DNA from: Methylobacterium radiodurans | GTDB lineage: Bacteria; Pseudomonadota; Alphaproteobacteria; Rhizobiales; Beijerinckiaceae | DNA length: 64,000 bases | NCBI RefSeq assembly: GCF_003173735.1 | Contig: NZ_CP029551.1 | Span: 2,814,001-2,878,000 of the forward strand | Direction: 5' to 3' | Shown here: positions 22,315-33,334 of the stretch, in pieces | How positions within the stretch are numbered: the stretch's first letter is position 1 | Layout of the letters: every line of letters begins with the position of its first letter | Notes under the pieces: generated by a model | Told to the model about the DNA's origin: nothing | Database searches by the model: none | Seen by the model: the letters and a program-made list of their open reading frames with translations, nothing else | Translations under genes and position numbers: made by a program

Positions 22315-23973
22315 ATGCCGAAGGGATCCGACCTGCTCGTGCAAGCGCTGGAGAACGAGGGCGTCGACCGCGTCTTCGGCATCCCGGGCGAGGAGAACCT
22401 CGACATCGTCGAGTCCCTGCGCACCTCGAAGATCGAGCTCGTCCTGACCCGCCACGAGCAGGCCGCAGCCTTCATGGCCGCAACCTACGGGCGGCTCACC
22501 GGCAAGCCCGGCGTCTGCCTCGCCACGCTCGGCCCGGGCGCGCTCAACTTCTCGACCGGCGCCGCCTACGCGCATCTGGGCGCCATGCCGATGATCATCA
22601 TCACCGGCCAGAAGGGCATCCTCTCCTCGCGCCAGGCCCGCTTCCAGATCGTCGACGTCATCGCCTCGATGAAGCCGATCACCAAGATGGCGCGCCAGAT
22701 CGTCTCCGCCTCCTCGATCCCCACCATCGTGCGCGACGCCTTCCGGGTCGCCATGGAGGAGCGGCCCGGCCCGGTCCTCTTGGAGCTGCCCGAGGACATC
22801 GCGGCCGAGGAAGCCGATTCGTACACGGTGCCCTCCCACCCGATCGACATCCCGGTCGCCCATCCGAAGGCGATCGAGCGCGCCGCCGAGATGATCGTCG
22901 CGGCCAAGCGCCCGCTGGTGATGCTGGGCGCGGCCGCCTCCCGCCCGCGCTCGACGAGCGACCTCGGCGGCTTCGTGCAGCGCACCGGAATCCCGTTCTT
23001 CACCACCCAGATGGGCAAGGGCACGGTCGCGCACGGCACCCGCCTCTACATGGGCACCGCCGCCCTGTCGGAGCGCGACTACGTGCACGAGGCGATCGAC
23101 GCCGCCGACCTCATCATCGCCATCGGCCACGACACGGTGGAGAAGCCGCCCTTCTTCATGGGCCAGCCGGACCAGAAGGTGCTGCACATCAGCTACACCC
23201 CGGCCAATGTCGAGCAGGTCTACTACCCCGACGCCGAGGTGGTGGGCGATCTCGGCCCCACCCTGAAGCTGCTCGCCGACCGGCTGGAGGACAGGCTGCC
23301 GAACGCGGGCGCGTTGCTGCCGCTGCGCGAGCACATCCTGTCCCGCATCGCCGACCGGGCCGACGAGGACCGCTTCCCCGTCACCCCGCAGCGGCTGGTG
23401 CGCGACGTGCGCCGGGTGATCCCCGAGGACGGCATCGTCTGCCTCGACAACGGGATGTACAAGATCTGGTTCGCCCGCAACTATCGCACCTACGTGGCCA
23501 ACACGCTGCTGCTCGACAACGCGCTGGCCACGATGGGCGCGGGCCTGCCCTCGGCGATGATGGCGGCGCTGCTCTACCCGAAGCGCCGTGTCATGGCGGT
23601 GTGCGGCGACGGCGGCTTCATGATGAACAGCCAGGAGATGGAGACGGCCGTGCGGCTCGGCCTCAACCTCGTGGTGCTGATCCTGGACGACTCGGCCTAC
23701 GGCATGATCCGCTGGAAGCAGGCGGTGGACGAGTTCCCGGATTACGGCATGACCTTCAAGAACCCGGACTTCGTGAAGTACGCCGAGTCCTACGGCGCCA
23801 CGGGACACCGGGTCGGCGCGGTCGAGGATCTGGGGCCGACGCTGGAGAAGGCGTTCCAGGCCGGCGGCGTCCACCTCGTGGCGGTGCCGATCGACTACTC
23901 GGAGAACACCCGCGTGCTCGTGAAGGAGCTGCGCGAGAAGGTGAAGCCGTCGCAGCCCGAGGCGACCGCCTGA
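22315..23973 (+). CDS. ThDP-dependent acetolactate-synthase-like enzyme; candidate 2-oxoglutarate decarboxylase
   Basis: A 552-residue ThDP enzyme with the usual three domains. The catalytic Glu48 lies in TRHEQAAAFMA and the ThDP/Mg motif starts at GDGGFMMNSQEM (431 on), followed by ILDDSAYGMIRWKQ. By annotation rules this is acetolactate synthase large subunit, but there is no ilvN-type regulatory subunit nearby and all operon partners handle C4 or PHA chemistry. Cyanobacterial 2-oxoglutarate decarboxylases (e.g. Synechococcus 7002 A2770) were likewise annotated as acetolactate synthase and sit beside a succinate-semialdehyde dehydrogenase, as here. I favour 2-oxoglutarate to succinate semialdehyde plus CO2, as inference. 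A 266-bp upstream gap probably holds the operon promoter. Confidence 0.88.
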   Translation: MPKGSDLLVQALENEGVDRVFGIPGEENLDIVESLRTSKIELVLTRHEQAAAFMAATYGRLTGKPGVCLATLGPGALNFSTGAAYAHLGAMPMIIITGQKGILSSRQARFQIVDVIASMKPITKMARQIVSASSIPTIVRDAFRVAMEERPGPVLLELPEDIAAEEADSYTVPSHPIDIPVAHPKAIERAAEMIVAAKRPLVMLGAAASRPRSTSDLGGFVQRTGIPFFTTQMGKGTVAHGTRLYMGTAALSERDYVHEAIDAADLIIAIGHDTVEKPPFFMGQPDQKVLHISYTPANVEQVYYPDAEVVGDLGPTLKLLADRLEDRLPNAGALLPLREHILSRIADRADEDRFPVTPQRLVRDVRRVIPEDGIVCLDNGMYKIWFARNYRTYVANTLLLDNALATMGAGLPSAMMAALLYPKRRVMAVCGDGGFMMNSQEMETAVRLGLNLVVLILDDSAYGMIRWKQAVDEFPDYGMTFKNPDFVKYAESYGATGHRVGAVEDLGPTLEKAFQAGGVHLVAVPIDYSENTRVLVKELREKVKPSQPEATA

Positions 23974-24000
23974 GGCGGGACGACCCAGGCACCTGATACT

Positions 24001-24027
24001 GCCGCGCGCGGACTCCCGCGCGCGGGC
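24001..24027. other. GC-rich stem-loop between the ThDP enzyme and dehydrogenase genes
   Basis: Alternating CG tracts (ccgcgcgcgg ... cgcgcgcggg) can pair around an ACTCC loop, with one mismatch or bulge. It has no T tract, so it is more likely an mRNA-processing or stability element than a terminator. Confidence 0.4.
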
Positions 24028-24054
24028 CCGACGCCGAAGCCGAGGATGCGCGCC

Positions 24055-25233
24055 ATGAAGCCCTTCACCTTCCAGACCACGCCGAACGTGCTGTTCGAGG
24101 CGGGCGCCTCGGCCAAGCTCCCCGAGATCGTGGCCGGGCTGAAGGCCAAGCGCGTCCTGCTCGTCACCGACAAGGGCGTACGGGATGCCGGGCTGACCGC
24201 CGCGGCCGAGACGGCGCTGGCCGAGGCCGGCGTGCAGATCGATGTGTACGACGACGTGAAGGCGGACCCGCCGGCCAGCATCATTGAGGCGGCCGCCGCC
24301 CGTGCCCGCGAGGCCAGCACCGATCTCGTCCTCTCGATCGGCGGCGGCTCGGCCCTCGATACGGCCAAGCTCGTGGCCTACCTCGCCAAGTCCGACGAGC
24401 GGCTCGACGACATCTACGGCGTCGGCCTGGCGCTGGGCGAGCGCCTGCCCCTGATCCTGGTGCCCACCACCGCGGGCACCGGCTCGGAGGTGACGCCGAT
24501 CTCGATCGTGACCACGCCCACCACCGAGAAGAAGGGCGTGGTCTCCCACAAGCTCCTGCCCGATTGGGCGGTGCTCGACCCTGAACTGACCCTGGGACTT
24601 CCGGCCCACGTCACCGCCGCCACCGGCATCGACGCGATGGTGCACGCCACCGAGGCCTTCACCAGCAAGAACAAGAAGAACCCGATCTCGGACCAGCTCG
24701 CCAAGCAGGCGCTGGCGCTGCTCTCGACCCATATCCGCACCGCCTGCACGGAGCCGAAGAACCTCGAGGCACGCTCGGGCATGCTGCTCGGCTCGATGCT
24801 GGCCGGCATGGCCTTCGCCAACGCGCCGGTCGCGGCCGTGCACGCGCTGGCCTATCCGATCGGCGCAATCTTCCACGTGCCGCACGGGCTCTCGAACGCC
24901 CTCGTGCTGATGGGCGTGATGCGGTTCAACCTCAGCCACGCGCAGGGGCTCTACGCCGAGCTCGCGCCGATCCTCGATCCGGAGGCGATCAACCTGCCCG
25001 AGAGCGAGGCCGCCGCCCGCTTCGTGGACGGGCTCGCGGCGATCTGCCGGGATTGCAAGGTTCCGGCCTCGCTGGCGGAAGTCGGCGTGAAGCAGGATGA
25101 CCTTGAGCGGCTCGCCACCGACGCGATGAAGCAGACCCGCCTCCTCGTGAACAACCCGCGCGAGGTCACCCACAAGGACGCCTACGCGATCTACGCCGAG
25201 GCCCTCGACGGCACGGCCCAGAAGGCGGCCTGA
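24055..25233 (+). CDS. Iron-containing (group III) alcohol dehydrogenase; candidate 4-hydroxybutyrate dehydrogenase
   Basis: A 392-residue NAD(P)-dependent dehydrogenase. The N-terminal nucleotide-binding domain has 'SIGGGSALDTAK' and 'PTTAGTGSEVT'. Metal ligands lie in DPELTLGLP, 'GIDAMVHATEAF' and AVHALAYPIG...FHVPHG (Asp plus three His). Clostridial and Ralstonia 4-hydroxybutyrate dehydrogenases belong to this family. With PhaEC, a CoA-transferase and GabD alongside, reduction of succinate semialdehyde to 4-hydroxybutyrate is the most economical role (inference). The ATG at 24055 is preferred because GAGG lies 9 nt upstream; the track-length ATG at 24046 (MRAMKPF) is possible. Confidence 0.92.
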   Translation: MKPFTFQTTPNVLFEAGASAKLPEIVAGLKAKRVLLVTDKGVRDAGLTAAAETALAEAGVQIDVYDDVKADPPASIIEAAAARAREASTDLVLSIGGGSALDTAKLVAYLAKSDERLDDIYGVGLALGERLPLILVPTTAGTGSEVTPISIVTTPTTEKKGVVSHKLLPDWAVLDPELTLGLPAHVTAATGIDAMVHATEAFTSKNKKNPISDQLAKQALALLSTHIRTACTEPKNLEARSGMLLGSMLAGMAFANAPVAAVHALAYPIGAIFHVPHGLSNALVLMGVMRFNLSHAQGLYAELAPILDPEAINLPESEAAARFVDGLAAICRDCKVPASLAEVGVKQDDLERLATDAMKQTRLLVNNPREVTHKDAYAIYAEALDGTAQKAA

Positions 25234-25302
25234 GGCGATCGGGATCCCGCCGGGCCTGGACGCCCGGCGGCGCGAGGGTTCGGGACAGGGGAGGCGGTGT
25301 CG

Positions 25303-26094
25303 ATGGATCCCTTCGAGAGCGTGAAGGCGATGGCGGAGCTTTGGGGGCGGGGTGCGCGCTCCTTCGCCGAGGCGCAGGCCAACATGATGGGCGCCTTCGC
25401 GGCCGGTCCCGCCCTCGCGGCGGATTCCGACGCGGCGCAGAAGGCGCAAGCGGCTTACGCCCGCGCCTGGGCCGACGCGCAGGCGGTCGCCGCGAGCTTC
25501 ACGACGAGCCTCCGGGACAAGGAGGGCCAGGACCCGGTCGCCGCCGAGGTGCTGGCCAAGGTGTTCGACCCGCGCGGCTGGCTCTCGGCCACCAGCGAGG
25601 TGGATGCGGCGCTCAGCCGGATGGCCGAGGGCCCGCAATTCGCCGACCTGTTCCAGGTCGAGCGCAAGTTCGCCGCGCTCACCGCGGCCTGGACGGCACT
25701 GAGGCGGCGCAACCTCGAGCACAACACCCTGATGCTGGAGGCCTGGACGCGCGCCACCGGCGCCTTCTCGCAAGCGGTGAACGCCCGGGCCGAGGCCGGC
25801 AAGCCGCTCGAATCGGCCCGCGAACTGATGGCGCTCTGGATCGAGACGGCGAACGACGTGCTGGTCGAGACCCAGCGCTCGGAGGCTTTCCTGACGAGCC
25901 AGCGCGACTCGCTGAAGGCGGCTACCGAGCTGCGCGTCGCGCAAGGGGATCTCGCCGAGTTCTACAGCCGGATGTTCGGCTACCCGACCCGCTCGGAACT
26001 GGACGACCTGCACAAGACCGTCACCGAACTGCGCCGGGAACTGCGCGCGCTCAAGCGCGCGAGACGCTCCGGCCGGATGGAGGCCACCGCGTGA
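25303..26094 (+). CDS. phaE: Class III PHA synthase subunit PhaE
   Basis: A 263-residue, mostly helical, Ala-rich protein matching the poly(R)-hydroxyalkanoic acid synthase III subunit E. It contains 'MALWIETANDVLVETQRSE', 'AQGDLAEFYSRMFGYPTRSELDDL' (cited in part) and a terminal basic coiled helix ending in RALKRARR. PhaE activates and stabilises PhaC on granules. The ATG at 25303 is 8 nt after GGGGAGG; the GTG at 25297 is too close to that site. It overlaps PhaC by 4 bp (GTGA), as in other class III pairs. Confidence 0.88.
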   Translation: MDPFESVKAMAELWGRGARSFAEAQANMMGAFAAGPALAADSDAAQKAQAAYARAWADAQAVAASFTTSLRDKEGQDPVAAEVLAKVFDPRGWLSATSEVDAALSRMAEGPQFADLFQVERKFAALTAAWTALRRRNLEHNTLMLEAWTRATGAFSQAVNARAEAGKPLESARELMALWIETANDVLVETQRSEAFLTSQRDSLKAATELRVAQGDLAEFYSRMFGYPTRSELDDLHKTVTELRRELRALKRARRSGRMEATA

Positions 26095-27197
26095 GCAGCA
26101 GCCGCCCCACCATCACGCCCGCCGACGCCGTGGCGGAGGCCTCCGCGCTCGGACGCCGCCTCGCGGAGGGCGCCAAGCTCTTCGGCGAGATCCGCGACGC
26201 GGACGTGCAGATCGCCACCACGCCGAAGGACCTCGTCTGGAGCCAGGACAAGGTCTCGCTCTACCGCTACCGGCCGCTCGCCGAATCCAAGGGCCTGCCC
26301 CCGGTGCTGATCGTCTACGGGCTGATCGGCCGCTACACCATGGCGGATCTGCAGGAGGACCGCTCGCTGGTGCGCAACCTCTTGAACCTCGGCCTCGACC
26401 TCTGGGTGGTCGACTGGGGCAATCCCGGCCGGGCCGAGCGCTTCGTCACCATCGACGACTACGTGGACGGCTACCTCGCCGAGTGCGTCAACGTGATCCA
26501 GGAGCGCACGCAGCGCGAGCGGCTGAACCTGCTCGGCATCTGCGAGGGCGGCGTCTTCACCACCTGCTACGCGGCGCTCAACCCCGATCAGGTCAACGCG
26601 ATGGTGCTCACCATCACGCCGATCGACTTCCACGCCGACCAGGTCGACAACCGTCCGGGCCACGGCTTCATCAACCTCTGGGCGCGCTCACTGCGGCCGG
26701 AGGACATCGACCGGCTGATCGAGACGCAAGGGTCTCTGCCCGGCGCCTTCATGGGCTCGGTCTTCTCCATGATGACGCCGATGCGGACGCTGACGAAGTA
26801 CAACCTCGACCTGCTCGACGCGCTCGCCGATAAGAAGAAGTTCCTGAACTTCCTGCGCATGGAGAAGTGGATCGCCGACCGGCCGGACCATCCGGGCGAG
26901 GCGGCCAAGCAGTGGCTGAAGGACCTCTACCAGGAGAACAAGCTGGTCGAGAGCCGCTTCGAATTGTCGGGCCGCACGGTGAAGCTCTCCGACATCACCT
27001 GCCCGGTGCTCAACGTCTTCGCCAAGGACGACCACATCATCCCGCCCGCCACGTCGCGGGCCCTCCAGGGCAAGATCGGCACGCAGGACTACACGGAGCT
27101 GGGGCTGCCCGGCGGCCATGTCGGCGTCTTCGTCGGCGGCAAGGCGCAGGCGCTGCTCGGCTCCGGCATCGCCGACTGGCTGAGCGCGCGCGGCTAG
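26091..27197 (+). CDS. phaC: Class III PHA synthase catalytic subunit PhaC
   Basis: A 368-residue alpha/beta-hydrolase-fold polymerase, the length typical of class III rather than the about 590 residues of class I. The nucleophile Cys151 lies in a lipase-like box (GICEGG), the catalytic Asp at 313-314 in FAKDDHIIPP, and the general base His343 in GLPGGHVGVF. It polymerises hydroxyacyl-CoA on granules. The start is a GTG overlapping the PhaE stop. Methylobacterium normally makes PHB with a class I synthase, so a class III pair inside a C4-acid operon implies a second, different polyester substrate. Confidence 0.93.
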   Translation: MSSSRPTITPADAVAEASALGRRLAEGAKLFGEIRDADVQIATTPKDLVWSQDKVSLYRYRPLAESKGLPPVLIVYGLIGRYTMADLQEDRSLVRNLLNLGLDLWVVDWGNPGRAERFVTIDDYVDGYLAECVNVIQERTQRERLNLLGICEGGVFTTCYAALNPDQVNAMVLTITPIDFHADQVDNRPGHGFINLWARSLRPEDIDRLIETQGSLPGAFMGSVFSMMTPMRTLTKYNLDLLDALADKKKFLNFLRMEKWIADRPDHPGEAAKQWLKDLYQENKLVESRFELSGRTVKLSDITCPVLNVFAKDDHIIPPATSRALQGKIGTQDYTELGLPGGHVGVFVGGKAQALLGSGIADWLSARG

Positions 27198-27217
27198 CGA
27201 GGGGAGGGGGCGTCGCG

Positions 27218-29215
27218 ATGGGCAGCCTGAAGAACAAGATCGTCAGCGCCGACGAGGCCGCCGCCATCATCCACGACGGCGACATGGTGGCGGTGTCGGG
27301 CTTCGTCGGCATCGGCACGCCCGACGAGCTGATCCTGGCGCTCGCCCGCCGCTTCGAGGCGACGGGCGCGCCGCGCGACCTCGGGCTGATGTTCGCGGCC
27401 GCCCCCGGCGACGGCAAGGAGCGGGGCCTCAACCGGCTGGCGCTGCCGGGCCTGGTGCGGCGGGTCGTGGGCGGCCACTGGTCGCTGGTGCCCAAGCTCG
27501 GCGCCATGGCGGTCGAGGGGGAGATCGAGGCCTACAACCTGCCGCTCGGCGTCGTCTCGCACCTCTACCGCGAGATCGCCGCGCACACGCCCGGCCACAT
27601 CACCAAGGTCGGCCTCAACACCTTCGTGGACCCGCGGCTCGAGGGCGGCAAGCTCAACGCGAAGACCACCGAAGATCTCGTCAACGTGGTCGAGCTCGGC
27701 GGCGAGCCCTGGCTCCATTACCGGGCCTTCCCGGTCCACGTCGCGCTGATCCGCGGCACGACCGCGGACCCGGCCGGCAACATCACGATGGAGCGCGAGG
27801 CGCTGACGCTGGACAACCTCGCGGCCGCCATGGCCGCGAAGAACTCGGGCGGCTTCGTGATCGCGCAGGTCGAGCGGCTGGCCGAGGCAGGCTCGCTCAA
27901 CCCGCGCGAGGTGCAGGTGCCTGGCGTGCTGGTCGATTGCGTGGTGCTGAGCCAGCCGGAGAACCACCGCCAGACCTATGGCACCGCCTACAACCACGCC
28001 TATACGGGCCGCCAGCGCGTGCCGCTGGACCGGATCGCGCCGATCGGGCTCGACGAGCGCAAGGTGATCGCGCGGCGCTGCGCCTTCGAGCTGCCGCCGG
28101 GCGGCGTGGTCAATCTCGGCATCGGCATGCCGGAGGGCGTGGCCGCGGTCGCCGCCGAGGAGCGGGTGCTGAAATACCTGACGCTCACCGCCGAGCCCGG
28201 CGTGATCGGCGGCCTGCCGCAGGGCGGGCTCGATTTCGGTGCGGCGCTCAATCCCGCGGCGGTGCTGCACCAGAACCAGCAATTCGACTTCTACGACGGC
28301 GGCGGGCTCGACCTCGCCTGCCTCGGCCTCGCCCAGTGCGACGGCCAAGGCAACGTCAACGTCAGCCGCTTCGGCAAAAGGCTCGCGGGGGCGGGCGGCT
28401 TCATCAACATCTCGCAGAACGCCAAGAGCCTCGTCTTCGCCGGCACCTTCACGGCGGGCGGGCTGGGGATCGCGATCGAGGACGGGCAGGTGCGCATCCT
28501 GCAGGAGGGGCGCTCGCGGAAGTTCATCGCTGCGGTGGAGCAGGTGACCTTCTCCGGCGCCTTCGCGGCCGAGCGCGGGCAGCCCGTGCTCTACGTGACG
28601 GAGCGCTGCGTCTTCCGGCGCACCCGGGCCGGCATGGAACTCATCGAGGTGGCGCCCGGCATCGACATCGAGCGGGACATCCTCGCCCAGATGGGCTTCG
28701 CGCCGATCGTCCAGAATCCGAGGCCGATGGACCCGCGCCTGTTCCGCGAGGGCGTGATGGGGCTGGAGCCCTGGCTGCTCGGCCTCTCTCTTGCAGAGCG
28801 GATCAGCTACGATCCGGAGCGCAACATCCTGTTCTCGAATCTCGAAGGCCACCAGATCCGCACGATCGACGACGTCGAGCTGGTGCGCCGCGAGTACGAG
28901 CGAGCCTGCCAGGAGATCGGCCGCAAGGTCCATCTCGTGGCGAACTACGACGGGTTCGAGTGCGACCCGACGGTGAGCGACGCCTATTTCTCCACCATCG
29001 CGTATCTGGAGAATCGCTACTACGAGACCGCGGCGCGTTACACCACGAGCGCCTTCATGCGGCTGAAGCTCGGCGCCTCGCTGGCAAGTCGCGATCTGGC
29101 GCCCCACGTGTTCGAGACAAAAGCAGAGGCACAGGCGAGGAATACGGCCCTAAGCGTGCCCATCAAGCCGCGGCCCGCCACGCCGCAGCCTCCTAAGGAA
29201 CCCCAGAATGCCTGA
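27218..29215 (+). CDS. Family I acyl-CoA:carboxylate CoA-transferase (Pct/YdiF-like) with C-terminal extension
   Basis: A 665-residue protein. Residues 1-about 515 align by eye with propionate CoA-transferase/YdiF: a fused alpha-beta CoA-transferase with 'GFVGIGTPDELILAL', 'AALNPAAVLHQNQQFDFYDG' and the thioester-forming Glu326 in LTAEPGVIGG. About 150 extra residues follow (LAERISYDPERNILF... to ARYTTSAFMRLKLG). Pct-type enzymes activate small hydroxyacids, including 4-hydroxybutyrate, using acetyl-CoA or propionyl-CoA. The ribosome-binding site is GGGGAGGGGG, 7 nt before the ATG. It lies downstream of PhaC and overlaps gabD by 8 bp. Confidence 0.9.
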   Translation: MGSLKNKIVSADEAAAIIHDGDMVAVSGFVGIGTPDELILALARRFEATGAPRDLGLMFAAAPGDGKERGLNRLALPGLVRRVVGGHWSLVPKLGAMAVEGEIEAYNLPLGVVSHLYREIAAHTPGHITKVGLNTFVDPRLEGGKLNAKTTEDLVNVVELGGEPWLHYRAFPVHVALIRGTTADPAGNITMEREALTLDNLAAAMAAKNSGGFVIAQVERLAEAGSLNPREVQVPGVLVDCVVLSQPENHRQTYGTAYNHAYTGRQRVPLDRIAPIGLDERKVIARRCAFELPPGGVVNLGIGMPEGVAAVAAEERVLKYLTLTAEPGVIGGLPQGGLDFGAALNPAAVLHQNQQFDFYDGGGLDLACLGLAQCDGQGNVNVSRFGKRLAGAGGFINISQNAKSLVFAGTFTAGGLGIAIEDGQVRILQEGRSRKFIAAVEQVTFSGAFAAERGQPVLYVTERCVFRRTRAGMELIEVAPGIDIERDILAQMGFAPIVQNPRPMDPRLFREGVMGLEPWLLGLSLAERISYDPERNILFSNLEGHQIRTIDDVELVRREYERACQEIGRKVHLVANYDGFECDPTVSDAYFSTIAYLENRYYETAARYTTSAFMRLKLGASLASRDLAPHVFETKAEAQARNTALSVPIKPRPATPQPPKEPQNA

Positions 29216-30680
29216 GACCGAGACCCTGTCCCTGAAGGACCCGAGCCTGCTCGTCGATGCCTGCCTGATCGGCGGCGAATGGTCGAAGAGCGGGTCCGGG
29301 TCGATCGAGGTGACGAACCCCGCCACCGGCGCCGTCATTGCACGCGTGCCCAACATAGGCGCCGAGGAGACGCGCCGGGCGATCGAGGCGGCGCACGCGG
29401 CCTATCCGGCCTGGCGCGCCAAGACCGCCGCCGAGCGCGCCACGCTGCTCAAGAAGCTCGCGGCGCTGATCACCGAGAACCAGGAGGATCTCGCCCGCAT
29501 CCTCACCGCCGAGCAGGGCAAGTCGCTCGCCGAGGCGCGGGCCGAGGTCACCATGTCGGCGGGTTATGTCACGTGGTTCGCCGAGGAGGCCCGGCGCGTC
29601 TACGGCGAGGTCATCCCCTCGCCCTGGCAGAACCGGCGCATCCTGGTCACCAAGGAGCCGGTCGGCGTGGTGGGGGCGATCACGCCCTGGAACTTCCCGT
29701 CCTCGATGATCGCCCGCAAGCTCGCCCCCGCGCTCGCCGCCGGCTGCCCGATCGTGATCAAGCCCGCCACCCAGACCCCGCTCTCGGGCTTGGTCTGGGG
29801 CCTGCTCTGTGAGCGGGCCGGCATCCCGGCGGGCCTCGTCTCGATCCTCACCGGCTCGGCCCGGGCGATCGGGGGCGAACTCACCGGCAACCCGCTGGTG
29901 AAGAAGATCACCTTCACGGGCTCGACCGAGGTCGGCAAGATCCTGATGAGCCAGGCCGCCGGCACGGTGAAGAAGGTGTCGATGGAGCTCGGCGGCAACG
30001 CGCCCTTCATCGTCTTCGACGACGCCGACCTCGACCGGGCGGTCGAGGGCGCGATGCTGGCCAAGTACCGCAACTCGGGCCAGACCTGCGTCTGCACCAA
30101 CCGGGTGCTGGTGCAGGACGGCATCTACGACGCCTTCGCGGAGAAGATGGCCGCAGCCGCCAAGGCCCTGAAGGTCGGCAACGGCGCGGAGGAGGGCGTG
30201 GTGCAGGGCCCGCTCATCGACCACGCCGCGGTCGAGAAGGTCGAGGCGCATATCCGCGACGCCACCGCCAAGGGCGCGCGGGTGATCGCGGGGGGCCGCC
30301 GCCACGCGCTCGGCGGCTCGTTCTTCGAGCCGACCGTGCTGGTCGACGTGGTGCCGGGCATGGATGTCGCCAAGGAGGAGACCTTCGGGCCGTTGGCGCC
30401 GCTCTTCCGCTTCCGCGACGAGGCGGAGGCGATCCGGATGGCCAACGACACGGAGTTCGGGCTGGCCTGCTACTTCTACACGCGCGATCTCGGGCGGGTC
30501 TTCCGGGTCTCGGAGGCGCTGGAATACGGCATGGTCGGCGTCAACGAGGGCATCATCACCACCGAGGTGGCGCCCTTCGGCGGCGTGAAGGAGTCGGGCG
30601 TCGGCCGCGAGGGCGGCCACCAGGGCATCGACGACTACCTGAACACCAAGTACGTCTGCGTCGGCGGCCTCGGCACCTGA
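29208..30680 (+). CDS. gabD: NAD(P)-dependent succinate-semialdehyde dehydrogenase
   Basis: A 490-residue aldehyde dehydrogenase. It is close to E. coli GabD throughout, including VVGAITPWNFP, 'KPATQTPLSGL', 'MELGGNAPFIVFDDADLDRA', and catalytic Cys294 with the neighbouring regulatory Cys296 in GQTCVCTN. It oxidises succinate semialdehyde to succinate in the cytoplasm. In this operon it would drain the proposed 2-oxoglutarate decarboxylase product back to the TCA cycle, competing with the 4-hydroxybutyrate branch. The start overlaps the CoA-transferase stop by 8 bp, and a stem-loop follows the stop. Confidence 0.94.
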   Translation: MPETETLSLKDPSLLVDACLIGGEWSKSGSGSIEVTNPATGAVIARVPNIGAEETRRAIEAAHAAYPAWRAKTAAERATLLKKLAALITENQEDLARILTAEQGKSLAEARAEVTMSAGYVTWFAEEARRVYGEVIPSPWQNRRILVTKEPVGVVGAITPWNFPSSMIARKLAPALAAGCPIVIKPATQTPLSGLVWGLLCERAGIPAGLVSILTGSARAIGGELTGNPLVKKITFTGSTEVGKILMSQAAGTVKKVSMELGGNAPFIVFDDADLDRAVEGAMLAKYRNSGQTCVCTNRVLVQDGIYDAFAEKMAAAAKALKVGNGAEEGVVQGPLIDHAAVEKVEAHIRDATAKGARVIAGGRRHALGGSFFEPTVLVDVVPGMDVAKEETFGPLAPLFRFRDEAEAIRMANDTEFGLACYFYTRDLGRVFRVSEALEYGMVGVNEGIITTEVAPFGGVKESGVGREGGHQGIDDYLNTKYVCVGGLGT

Positions 30681-31064: not shown

Positions 31065-32597
31065 TCAGCGCCAGAACGGCTTCACGTCGACCAAGTCGTC
31101 GTGGGCCTCGGCCGCCTTCTCGAGGAGGGCGTCGGCGTCCGCCTCCTTGTCGGCGGCGGTGAGGCCCGCCGCGAACGCGACCATTCCGTCCGCCGGTCCG
31201 TCCTCTGGCACGGCGAGGTCCGCCATCACCGTGTGGGCCGTGGCGAGATCGTTGAGCGCGCCGAGATGGTCCTGCAGATCGGAGAGCGCGTCGCCGAAGA
31301 CCTTGTGGCGCTTGCGGGCCTTCTTGGAATCGTAGAGCCCGGCGAAGAACTCGGCGCCGTAGCGCAGCTTCTTGGCGGCGATGCGGACCCGGTGGCGCTC
31401 CTCCGGGTCGAGCCGGTCGAGGTGGCGGCCGCGCTGCTTCACGCGGCGCCGGAAGCGATCGAGCACCCGGGCGGCGAAGTCGCGGGCATCCTCGTCGGCG
31501 CCGGGGGCCTCGCGCCATGGCCCGGTCTCGATCCAGGCGACGAGATCGATCAGCAGCGCGCGCCATTCCGGGGCGTCGAGGGTGGCCAGCACGGCGGCGT
31601 AGGCGCGGGCGTGCTCGGCCTCCAGCCGCTCGCGCAGGGCCACAAGGCCGGGCTCGTCCGGCCGGCGCTCGATCTCGGCGGGCAGGGTGGTGGCCAGGAA
31701 GACGTCGAGGTTGCGCGCCTGCCCGAAAGGCTCGGTGACCCGCTTGATCTCGTCGTTGAGGATCGCGGCGCGCGGGTCGGCCGAGAGCAGCGGCTTGAAC
31801 AGCGAGAAGGCCGAGCGGAGGCGACGGATCGCGACCCGCATCTGGTGCAGAGCCTCCGGCGGCTTCGCGGCCAGAAAGACGGCCTCGTTCAGGCGCAACT
31901 GGCGCAGGCAGGCCAGCGCGATCAGGCGGAAGGCGTCCGCCGCGCGCGCACCCTCCGGCATCACGACCGGCTCGGCCTTCGTCGGGCGGAGCGAGCGGCC
32001 GTCGAGGAGGGCGAAGCCGCGCTCGCTCTTGGCGCGCGCCCCGAGGCGCAGCGGGACGGTCTCGGCGAGCGCCTGGGCCAGGGCGAAGAGATCGCCGGCC
32101 GTGCCGGATTCGAGTTCGAGTTCCAGCTCGGTCAGGGCGGCGTCCCCGCTCGACGGCGTCTCGACCCGGCCCTCGTCGCGGGTCACCAGGATGCGCGAGG
32201 CCCCGTAATCGACCGGGTGCTCGGCCCGCATCACCACGGTGCTGAACTGGGGCGCGAGCGCTGGATCCTTCGCCCCCTCCAGCACCGCGCGGACCGGCGT
32301 GTCGGCGAAGCCCTCCGGTTCCGGCGCCTCGCCCGGGACGGGCACTTCCCACTCGGCCCGGTCGAACAGGCCGATGCCGCCCTCGCCGGACTTCACGGTC
32401 TGCACGAAGGTCTCGCCCTTGCGCCGGACCCGGAGCGTCAGCCCGGCCGCGCGCAGGTCCTGGTCGGCGGTGTCGAAGTAGGTGGAGACGATAAGCCGGG
32501 GCTCCGGTGCCCCCTGGAGCAGCGGGTGCCTGGCCAGGGCGGAGAGATCCGGCCCGACGCATTCCAGTTTCAGCTCGACCTCGCGCGGCGCGCTCAT
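31065..32597 (-). CDS. CYTH-CHAD protein (inorganic triphosphatase-like domain plus polyphosphate-binding CHAD domain)
   Basis: A 510-residue cytoplasmic protein. Residues 1-about 200 are a CYTH triphosphate-tunnel domain with the ExExK start (EVELKLE) and paired basic/acidic strands (LRVRRKG, ELELELES). Residues about 225-500 are a CHAD domain, a helical bundle with basic His/Arg motifs 'LHQMRVAIRRLRSAF' and RHRVRIAAKKLRYGAEFF. CYTH domains hydrolyse triphosphates, and CHAD domains bind polyphosphate and localise to granules. The ATG at 32597 is chosen because the domain begins immediately there; longer upstream frames lack homology. Its nearness to a PHA operon may be coincidental, since CHAD proteins can also associate with PHA granules. 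Confidence 0.9.
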   Translation of the reverse strand: MSAPREVELKLECVGPDLSALARHPLLQGAPEPRLIVSTYFDTADQDLRAAGLTLRVRRKGETFVQTVKSGEGGIGLFDRAEWEVPVPGEAPEPEGFADTPVRAVLEGAKDPALAPQFSTVVMRAEHPVDYGASRILVTRDEGRVETPSSGDAALTELELELESGTAGDLFALAQALAETVPLRLGARAKSERGFALLDGRSLRPTKAEPVVMPEGARAADAFRLIALACLRQLRLNEAVFLAAKPPEALHQMRVAIRRLRSAFSLFKPLLSADPRAAILNDEIKRVTEPFGQARNLDVFLATTLPAEIERRPDEPGLVALRERLEAEHARAYAAVLATLDAPEWRALLIDLVAWIETGPWREAPGADEDARDFAARVLDRFRRRVKQRGRHLDRLDPEERHRVRIAAKKLRYGAEFFAGLYDSKKARKRHKVFGDALSDLQDHLGALNDLATAHTVMADLAVPEDGPADGMVAFAAGLTAADKEADADALLEKAAEAHDDLVDVKPFWR

Positions 32598-32869
32598 GCA
32601 GTGTCTTTCCGTCTCCTCGGGACCGCCCGCAGGGCGGCCGATGCCGTCGATTCGCGTCCGTCGCGCGTGCGGCGTCGTGTCATAGCACGTCCTGGCCCAC
32701 GCGCCGGTCCGCGTCGGCAACGCGCGAACCGGCGAAGGGATCGACGGCGGCGCGCGGAAGGCGACGCCCGAAGCCTGCGGACGCGGCGGCGCGTCGCGCA
32801 CCGGAACCCGCGGGCGCCCGCCCGCACTGTCTGCACGGATTTCCCGACCCTGGAGACGGAGCGGACGCA

Positions 32870-33334
32870 ATGCGATTCACCCCCCGGCACACGTTGCTGG
32901 TCGGCAGCCTGATCACGGCCTTGGCGCTCGCGGGCCCGGCCTCGGCCGAGCAGACGAAGCCGCTGCCGAAGCCCGCTACCGACGCCATGCCCCCCATCGA
33001 GCTGACCATCGACGAGCAAGACGGGAAGCCCGTCTGCGCCCCCGCGGAGCTGCGCCTGCCGGCCGACACCAATGTGGAGATCCGCGTGGTCAGCCACGCT
33101 AAGACGCCGGTGACGATCACGGCGCCGGGCCAGTTCGAGAACGCCCGTGTTCTCCACGCGGACGGCGACCTCGTCCATGTGGCGAGCGAGAAGGGCTACC
33201 TCGTCAAGCAGAACGGGAAGGGGACGCTGCGGCTTCGCACCCTGCCGGCGGGCGAGCACGACTTCGCCTGCACCGCCACGACGAAGCAGAACGCGCCCTT
33301 CGTGGGCAAGCTCGTCCTCACGCCGCCGGCCTGA
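32870..33334 (+). CDS. Periplasmic cupredoxin-like protein
   Basis: A 154-residue protein with a cleavable signal peptide (MRFTPRHTLL...PASA, cut near residue 26). The mature domain has a beta-sandwich pattern ending in 'LPAGEHDFACTATTKQ', with a Cys and nearby His that resemble EfeO-type cupredoxin domains. The full type 1 copper ligand set (His, Cys, His, Met) is not clear, so copper binding is uncertain. A GGAGACGGAG ribosome-binding region supports the ATG. It is divergent from the CYTH-CHAD gene. Confidence 0.65.
   Translation: MRFTPRHTLLVGSLITALALAGPASAEQTKPLPKPATDAMPPIELTIDEQDGKPVCAPAELRLPADTNVEIRVVSHAKTPVTITAPGQFENARVLHADGDLVHVASEKGYLVKQNGKGTLRLRTLPAGEHDFACTATTKQNAPFVGKLVLTPPA

Follow-up and report, generated by a model that had tools for sequence, protein, structure and literature searches.

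A Methylobacterium operon proposed to lead from 2-oxoglutarate to a 4-hydroxybutyrate polyester

The six-gene operon and its conservation in Methylobacterium

A 64,000-nucleotide stretch of the Methylobacterium radiodurans genome (NZ_CP029551.1, positions 2814001-2878000 of a single 5.54 Mb contig; hereafter the window) carries six head-to-tail genes which, judged by their families and contexts, very probably make a 4-hydroxybutyrate (4HB)-containing polyester from 2-oxoglutarate. A thiamine diphosphate (ThDP)-dependent enzyme would convert 2-oxoglutarate to succinate semialdehyde and CO2, and an iron-type alcohol dehydrogenase (Fe-ADH) would turn the semialdehyde into 4HB using NAD(P)H. A coenzyme A (CoA)-transferase (CoAT) would then form 4HB-CoA, most likely with acetyl-CoA as donor, and a class III polyhydroxyalkanoate (PHA) synthase, PhaE-PhaC, would polymerize it to a 4HB polyester. 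GabD, a succinate semialdehyde dehydrogenase (SSADH), would convert surplus semialdehyde to succinate, a branch point that would permit either storage or a bypass of the tricarboxylic acid (TCA) cycle. We infer substrates, direction, CoA donor and polymer from gene content, order, family membership, conservation and context, all of which can be read directly.

The initial annotation had described six co-directional genes; all are present on the + strand at this place, and each family is confirmed by a profile score above a curated Pfam or NCBIfam cut-off. The first gene (22315..23973) encodes the ThDP-dependent 2-oxo acid decarboxylase, proposed to act on 2-oxoglutarate (NF006187, 839 bits, cut-off 509). 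It is followed by the gene for Fe-ADH, the proposed succinate semialdehyde reductase or 4HB dehydrogenase (24046..25233; PF00465, 165.1 against a cut-off of 31.3, and PF25137 above cut-off), for which relatives favor an ATG start at 24055. Next come phaE (25297..26094; PF09712, 76.6 against 25.7) and phaC, encoding the catalytic subunit from a GTG start (26091..27197; TIGR01836, 373.8 against 365.3). The last two genes encode a 665-residue, YdiF-like class I CoAT (27218..29215, ATG at 27218; PF01144, 121 against 23), proposed to be an acetyl-CoA:4HB CoA-transferase, and the GabD-type SSADH (29208..30680; TIGR01780, 694.8 against 646.35). From ThDP to GabD, the intergenic gaps measure 72, 63, -4, 20 and -8 bases.

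We surveyed 111 Methylobacterium genomes with a CoAT match threshold of E <= 1e-300. Forty have a match, and the other 71 have none at that threshold. The ThDP, Fe-ADH, PhaE, PhaC, CoAT and GabD genes lie in this order on one strand in 38 of the 40 CoAT-positive genomes; the remaining two (L258, L264) are interrupted by contig ends. Nine of the 40 had been examined beforehand, all with the full order, which is also seen in 29 of the 31 newly examined. Two of the 38 (L265, L266) have adenylate kinase and hydrolase genes between CoAT and GabD, and a GabD of 60-63% identity. This conservation of order, which the initial annotation had proposed to look for in gene neighborhoods, indicates that the arrangement is not due to chance. 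In a smaller set of 25 genomes of the genus, that of M. radiodurans included, a close ThDP homolog is found in 13 and the full six-gene order in nine (M. radiodurans itself and eight of the 18 neighborhoods examined). The closest named relative among the matches listed is M. hispanicum DSM 16372, with a 99% identical ThDP protein; named Methylobacterium loci overlap the 40-genome set and were not added to its counts.

The ThDP enzyme and its genomic contexts

The ThDP enzyme contains domains PF02775/02776/00205, with the catalytic glutamate E48 in an RHEQ motif and the GDG motif in the form GDGGF. We compared 35 ThDP sequences of our own choosing, by residue and by tree: 26 rows of one clade and nine IlvB, AlsS, Gcl or other rows. 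The window enzyme falls inside the 26-row clade (99/96), with the AlsS pair outside and IlvB/IlvI, an IlvB-like enzyme of the same genome (at 4.57 Mb) and Gcl further out; long-branch warnings apply to two paralogs from the same genome, E. coli IlvB and the haloarchaeal, Pectobacterium and Staphylococcus rows. As the initial annotation had anticipated, the enzyme thus does not group with anabolic IlvB. Taken at face value, the name of NF006187 ('acetolactate synthase large subunit') and the best PDB match (13bb, called acetolactate synthase) would make it an acetolactate synthase feeding acetoin or 2-hydroxy acids. We regard this as very improbable: the clade is separate from both IlvB and AlsS; the gene preceding the operon is of the mannose-1-phosphate guanylyltransferase type and the following one encodes Fe-ADH, rather than budA or ilvH/N, whereas both AlsS controls adjoin budA; and the genome has the separate enzyme at 4.57 Mb, which joins E. 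coli IlvI in the tree. NF006187 scores above cut-off for all seven tested SSADH- or PHA-linked members of the clade, from both branches, and its name is probably a misnomer for them.

Several residue correspondences are consistent with 2-oxoglutarate decarboxylation. Using the residue numbers given for MaKGD in PMC10418658, we mapped positions to the window enzyme by motif and offset rather than by alignment. Residues E48, D432, D459, Y462 and Y528 and lysines K383 and K468 correspond to MaKGD positions, the two lysines being equivalent to MaKGD K386 and K471, which contact 2-oxoglutarate in docking; MaKGD Q254 has no confident placement. A lysine occupies the K386 position in all 26 clade rows and in none of the other nine. 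At the K471 position the clade has lysine (22/26) or histidine (4/26), neither of which occurs in the other nine rows. An enzyme that binds 2-oxoglutarate could also be a carboligase, chemistry which PMC10418658, in its available part, reports for Mycobacterium Rv1248c with glyoxylate. Semialdehyde and alcohol dehydrogenase partners nevertheless fit a free aldehyde product, and MaKGD is described in the available text as yielding succinate semialdehyde, so that a carboligase is about as improbable as an acetolactate synthase.

A second copy of the gene gives independent support to 2-oxoglutarate as the substrate. At 5.01 Mb of the same genome (G000:C1:5003000-5021000; L031:4052-12087), a KgtP-like permease, a ThDP enzyme, GabD, a sensor kinase and a sigma54 response regulator are encoded in this order on one strand. 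Between the two loci, ThDP shows 7 differences in 1632 bases and 1 in 544 residues, and GabD 31 in 1470 bases and 6 in 490 residues; the near-identity of the ThDP copies suggests recent duplication or gene conversion. Over 420 residues the permease shares 63% identity with KgtP of E. coli, which is annotated as an alpha-ketoglutarate:H+ symporter. It is because a near-identical copy sits in this KgtP-GabD operon that the substrate assignment gains support. The same five-gene arrangement is found in L059 and, with another aldehyde dehydrogenase (ALDH) replacing GabD, in L033 and L060 (each on a contig of 60764 bases, probably one and the same), and M. nodulans has a major facilitator superfamily transporter, ThDP and gabD in succession.

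Related operons outside the genus place enzymes of 2-oxoglutarate supply beside the ThDP gene. Bradyrhizobium Ec3.3 (L069) encodes CitS, aconitase, an isocitrate dehydrogenase (IDH)-type protein, ThDP, ALDH, Fe-ADH, PhaE, PhaC, CoAT, a phasin, an alpha/beta hydrolase and, up to the end of the stretch, a similarity to Acs. According to its record annotation, Bosea vaviloviae (L216) has acnA, an isocitrate/isopropylmalate family dehydrogenase, ThDP, Fe-ADH, phaE, phaC, CoA-transferase, phaP, hydrolase, acs, ppa, adenylate kinase and citrate symporter genes. In Bradyrhizobium canariense (L070), IDH, KgtP and ThDP precede genes for a phasin, an Acs-like piece, Ppa, Adk, Fe-ADH, PhaE, PhaC and CoAT. 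An IDH-type gene also lies immediately upstream of ThDP in L265 and L266. Since IDH, twice with aconitase, is found upstream of ThDP in these operons, 2-oxoglutarate gains further support as the substrate. The order ThDP, Fe-ADH, PhaE, PhaC, CoAT recurs in G157, G262 and G604; the ThDP enzymes of G157 and G262 are 41% identical to that of the window, and the G604 enzyme shares 73% identity with the G157 one. Those of G157 and G262, which represent a second ThDP branch within this kind of operon, read DVGAHKMW and YGLI and so match V382, A384, H385, K386, Y465 and L467 of MaKGD, a large part of the signature of this cyanobacterial 2-oxoglutarate decarboxylase, which has been characterized; this, too, speaks for 2-oxoglutarate.

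Might the ThDP enzyme act on oxaloacetate instead, giving malonate semialdehyde and, finally, poly-3-hydroxypropionate? The chemistry would be the same on a shorter dicarboxylic 2-oxo acid, and the Fe-ADH and CoAT sequences are not substrate-specific; the KgtP, aconitase, IDH and GabD neighbors, however, indicate 2-oxoglutarate and succinate semialdehyde, and we consider this substrate decidedly improbable. Somewhat less remote, though still unlikely, is an operon in which ThDP and GabD serve only as a TCA bypass from 2-oxoglutarate to succinate, while Fe-ADH, PhaEC and CoAT serve another monomer such as 3-hydroxybutyrate (3HB) or 3-hydroxypropionate. ThDP and GabD do occur without the other four genes (L031, L059, L229), and the CoAT family exists alone. 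Yet these four genes sit between ThDP and GabD in nearly all CoAT-positive Methylobacterium genomes, and in L070, L216 and L217 the genes for ThDP, Fe-ADH, PhaE, PhaC and CoAT share a strand, while neither GabD nor ALDH is recognized in the stretch. The KgtP-GabD second copy, the upstream IDH and aconitase genes and the placement of ThDP outside IlvB argue for the route from 2-oxoglutarate to a 4HB polyester put forward in the initial annotation. The KgtP/GabD and IDH/aconitase context also favors 4HB over 2-hydroxyisobutyrate or lactate, monomers which that annotation had held possible.

Synthase, transferase and dehydrogenases

PhaC has the cysteine of GICEGG, the aspartate of AKDDHIIP and the histidine of GGHVG, which we take to be the catalytic residues, and scores 131.9 bits against the class I model TIGR01838 (cut-off 622.65). 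PhaE, above the gathering score of PF09712, falls under the stricter TIGR01834 (68, cut-off 155). In most operon-bearing Methylobacterium, PhaE is 46-54% identical to that of the window, and in others 62-95%; for PhaC the range is 76-96%. Phasin genes accompany the module in L069, L070 and L216.

CoAT aligns with YdiF (2ahu) at 432 bits over its residues 10-518 and contains the EPGVIGG motif. It matches PF01144 rather than PF02550 (21.6, cut-off 24), to which the OrfZ/Cat2 family of 4HB CoA-transferases presumably belongs. About 140 residues lie C-terminal to the YdiF-like part, and many relatives align across most of this extension. At E <= 1e-170, relatives are found in 16 of 385 genomes of the class and 29 of 398 of the phylum; among 26 short loci from the phylum (flanks of about 1.5 kb), PhaC is adjacent in one. 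We considered CoAT alone as a marker of the pathway and rejected it, since the family also occurs without the module. Similarity to Acs is found with the module in L069, L216, L217 and L218 (the last without PhaE/PhaC), and Ppa and Adk in L216 and L070, the latter also with the Acs-like piece. An apparent acetate-recycling set of phasin, acetyl-CoA synthetase, pyrophosphatase and adenylate kinase thus travels with the module (L216:12010-16574; L070:10682-13300). The Acs, Ppa and Adk neighbors would fit an acetyl-CoA-dependent transferase whose released acetate is re-activated.

GabD shares 61% identity with its E. coli counterpart across 481 residues and has the GQTC motif; it scores 736.9 against the narrower PRK11241 model (cut-off 828). 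The role of Fe-ADH as a succinate semialdehyde reductase or 4HB dehydrogenase is proposed by context only. In six related loci (L073, L080, L214, L215, L219, L222), a zinc alcohol dehydrogenase (Zn-ADH) replaces Fe-ADH beside ThDP. L-arabinonate dehydratase and RraA-like genes lie directly upstream of ThDP in two of them (L080:6468-8995; L214:2013-5371), a link that recalls the 4HB polymer formed from L-arabinose by Hydrogenophaga pseudoflava. The betaproteobacterial L215, L219 and L222 have CoAT, ThDP and Zn-ADH with no PhaE/PhaC recognized nearby; a phasin is annotated adjacent in L219 and L222.

Several observations weigh against the proposed 4HB pathway. Fe-ADH falls below every NCBIfam cut-off scored (ErcA, SarD and 4HB dehydrogenase), with 250.4 against a cut-off of 500 for the 4HB dehydrogenase model NF058672. 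The genome has a CoAT paralog, 58% identical, in a different context (G000:C1:2189220-2191130), and 14 of 16 CoAT neighborhoods examined are without the module, which the other two hold. MaKGD V382, A384, H385 and L467 are replaced by N, M, Y and M in the window enzyme, while L165/L166/L213 have the MaKGD residues; the MaKGD contacts themselves come from docking to a predicted model, according to the available part of PMC10418658. Our 35-sequence tree includes no characterized KGD sequence (A2770 is among those absent), and plasmid searches named no cyanobacterium among the matches listed. Among the best 80 named ThDP loci, out of at least 589 confirmed, 38 have ALDH and 13 have PhaE, PhaC and CoAT as partners (same strand, within 12 kb, at least 35% identity); 37 are without a recognized ALDH, ADH, CoAT or PhaC partner, some of them at contig ends. 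The IDH-type gene of L069 scores 428.6 against an isocitrate dehydrogenase cut-off of 510, and we name it from its family rank, the adjoining aconitase and its RSVNVRLR motif, which we assume to mark IDH. Finally, SucA and a class I PhaC are also encoded in the genome, so that the TCA cycle can be closed without a bypass, and 4HB may be a co-monomer or the branch may be silent.

Around the operon, a CYTH and CHAD domain protein gene (31065-32870, minus strand) adjoins it in convergent orientation. In several Methylobacterium a DUF2252 gene lies divergent and upstream (L039:11372-12859; similar translations in L035, L037, L038 and L040). A promoter scan gave no sites, and the six terminator-like matches, against 2.7 expected, are all within genes.

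Known pathways and implications

The same reaction sequence and synthase class are found in an engineered route to P(3HB-co-4HB) in Synechococcus sp. PCC 7002, which, as described in the available parts of PMC7147479 and PMC8659255, combines a 2-oxoglutarate decarboxylase, the 4HB dehydrogenase and 4HB-CoA transferase of Porphyromonas gingivalis, and phaABEC. That pathway was assembled by humans from several organisms, with PhaAB for 3HB, whereas the Methylobacterium genes form a single natural operon that includes GabD and in which the transferase is of the YdiF type. The succinate pathway of Clostridium kluyveri (Cat1, SucD, 4HbD, OrfZ) likewise leads from succinate semialdehyde through 4HB to 4HB-CoA, but begins at succinyl-CoA and yields no polymer, according to the available part of PMC8659255; in Methylobacterium the semialdehyde would arise by decarboxylation, and the CoA-transferase is of the PF01144 type. 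The cyanobacterial KGD-SSADH bypass (ScKGD A2770; MaKGD) shares the pairing of a ThDP decarboxylase with SSADH, the catalytic residues and the two substrate-contacting lysines, but is without PHA genes, and several pocket residues differ in the branch of the window enzyme. Compared with class III PHA synthases generally, with which they share the PhaC motif residues, the TIGR01836 match and an adjacent PhaE, the Methylobacterium subunits are linked to genes of putative 4HB supply, and PhaA/PhaB are not among the six.

Wild-type bacteria mostly need 4HB precursors to form 4HB polymers, as stated in the available parts of PMC7147479 and PMC8659255. Exceptions given there are H. pseudoflava, which converts L-arabinose to such a polymer through a pathway described as meriting study, and Bacillus cereus, which makes one naturally from unrelated carbon. 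In the same available text, the decarboxylase route appears only as an engineered strain, and neither Methylobacterium nor Bradyrhizobium occurs in the main texts of the two papers. A limited search returned no natural operon of this kind among the literature matches listed, which lends slight support to the initial annotation's view that such a single operon had not been described.

Poly-4-hydroxybutyrate is an approved medical polymer, produced commercially with engineered strains. If our reading is correct, a single natural operon leading to it from 2-oxoglutarate would be a source of enzymes already matched to one another, and the curated NF006187 'acetolactate synthase' model would cover a large clade of 2-oxoglutarate decarboxylases. 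The operon would also offer a concrete hypothesis for wild-type exceptions such as H. pseudoflava and B. cereus, and add a storage polymer possibly tied to nitrogen status. With about even confidence, we may further propose that several alphaproteobacterial families carry a dedicated system for making poly(4-hydroxybutyrate) granules from citrate or 2-oxoglutarate, comprising transport, aconitase, IDH, decarboxylase, reductase, transferase, PhaEC, phasin and acetate recycling. Such a system would stand beside polyhydroxybutyrate and be fed by the 2-oxoglutarate that accumulates when nitrogen is limiting, and its araD-linked versions would explain 4HB polymer formation from L-arabinose in species such as H. 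pseudoflava.

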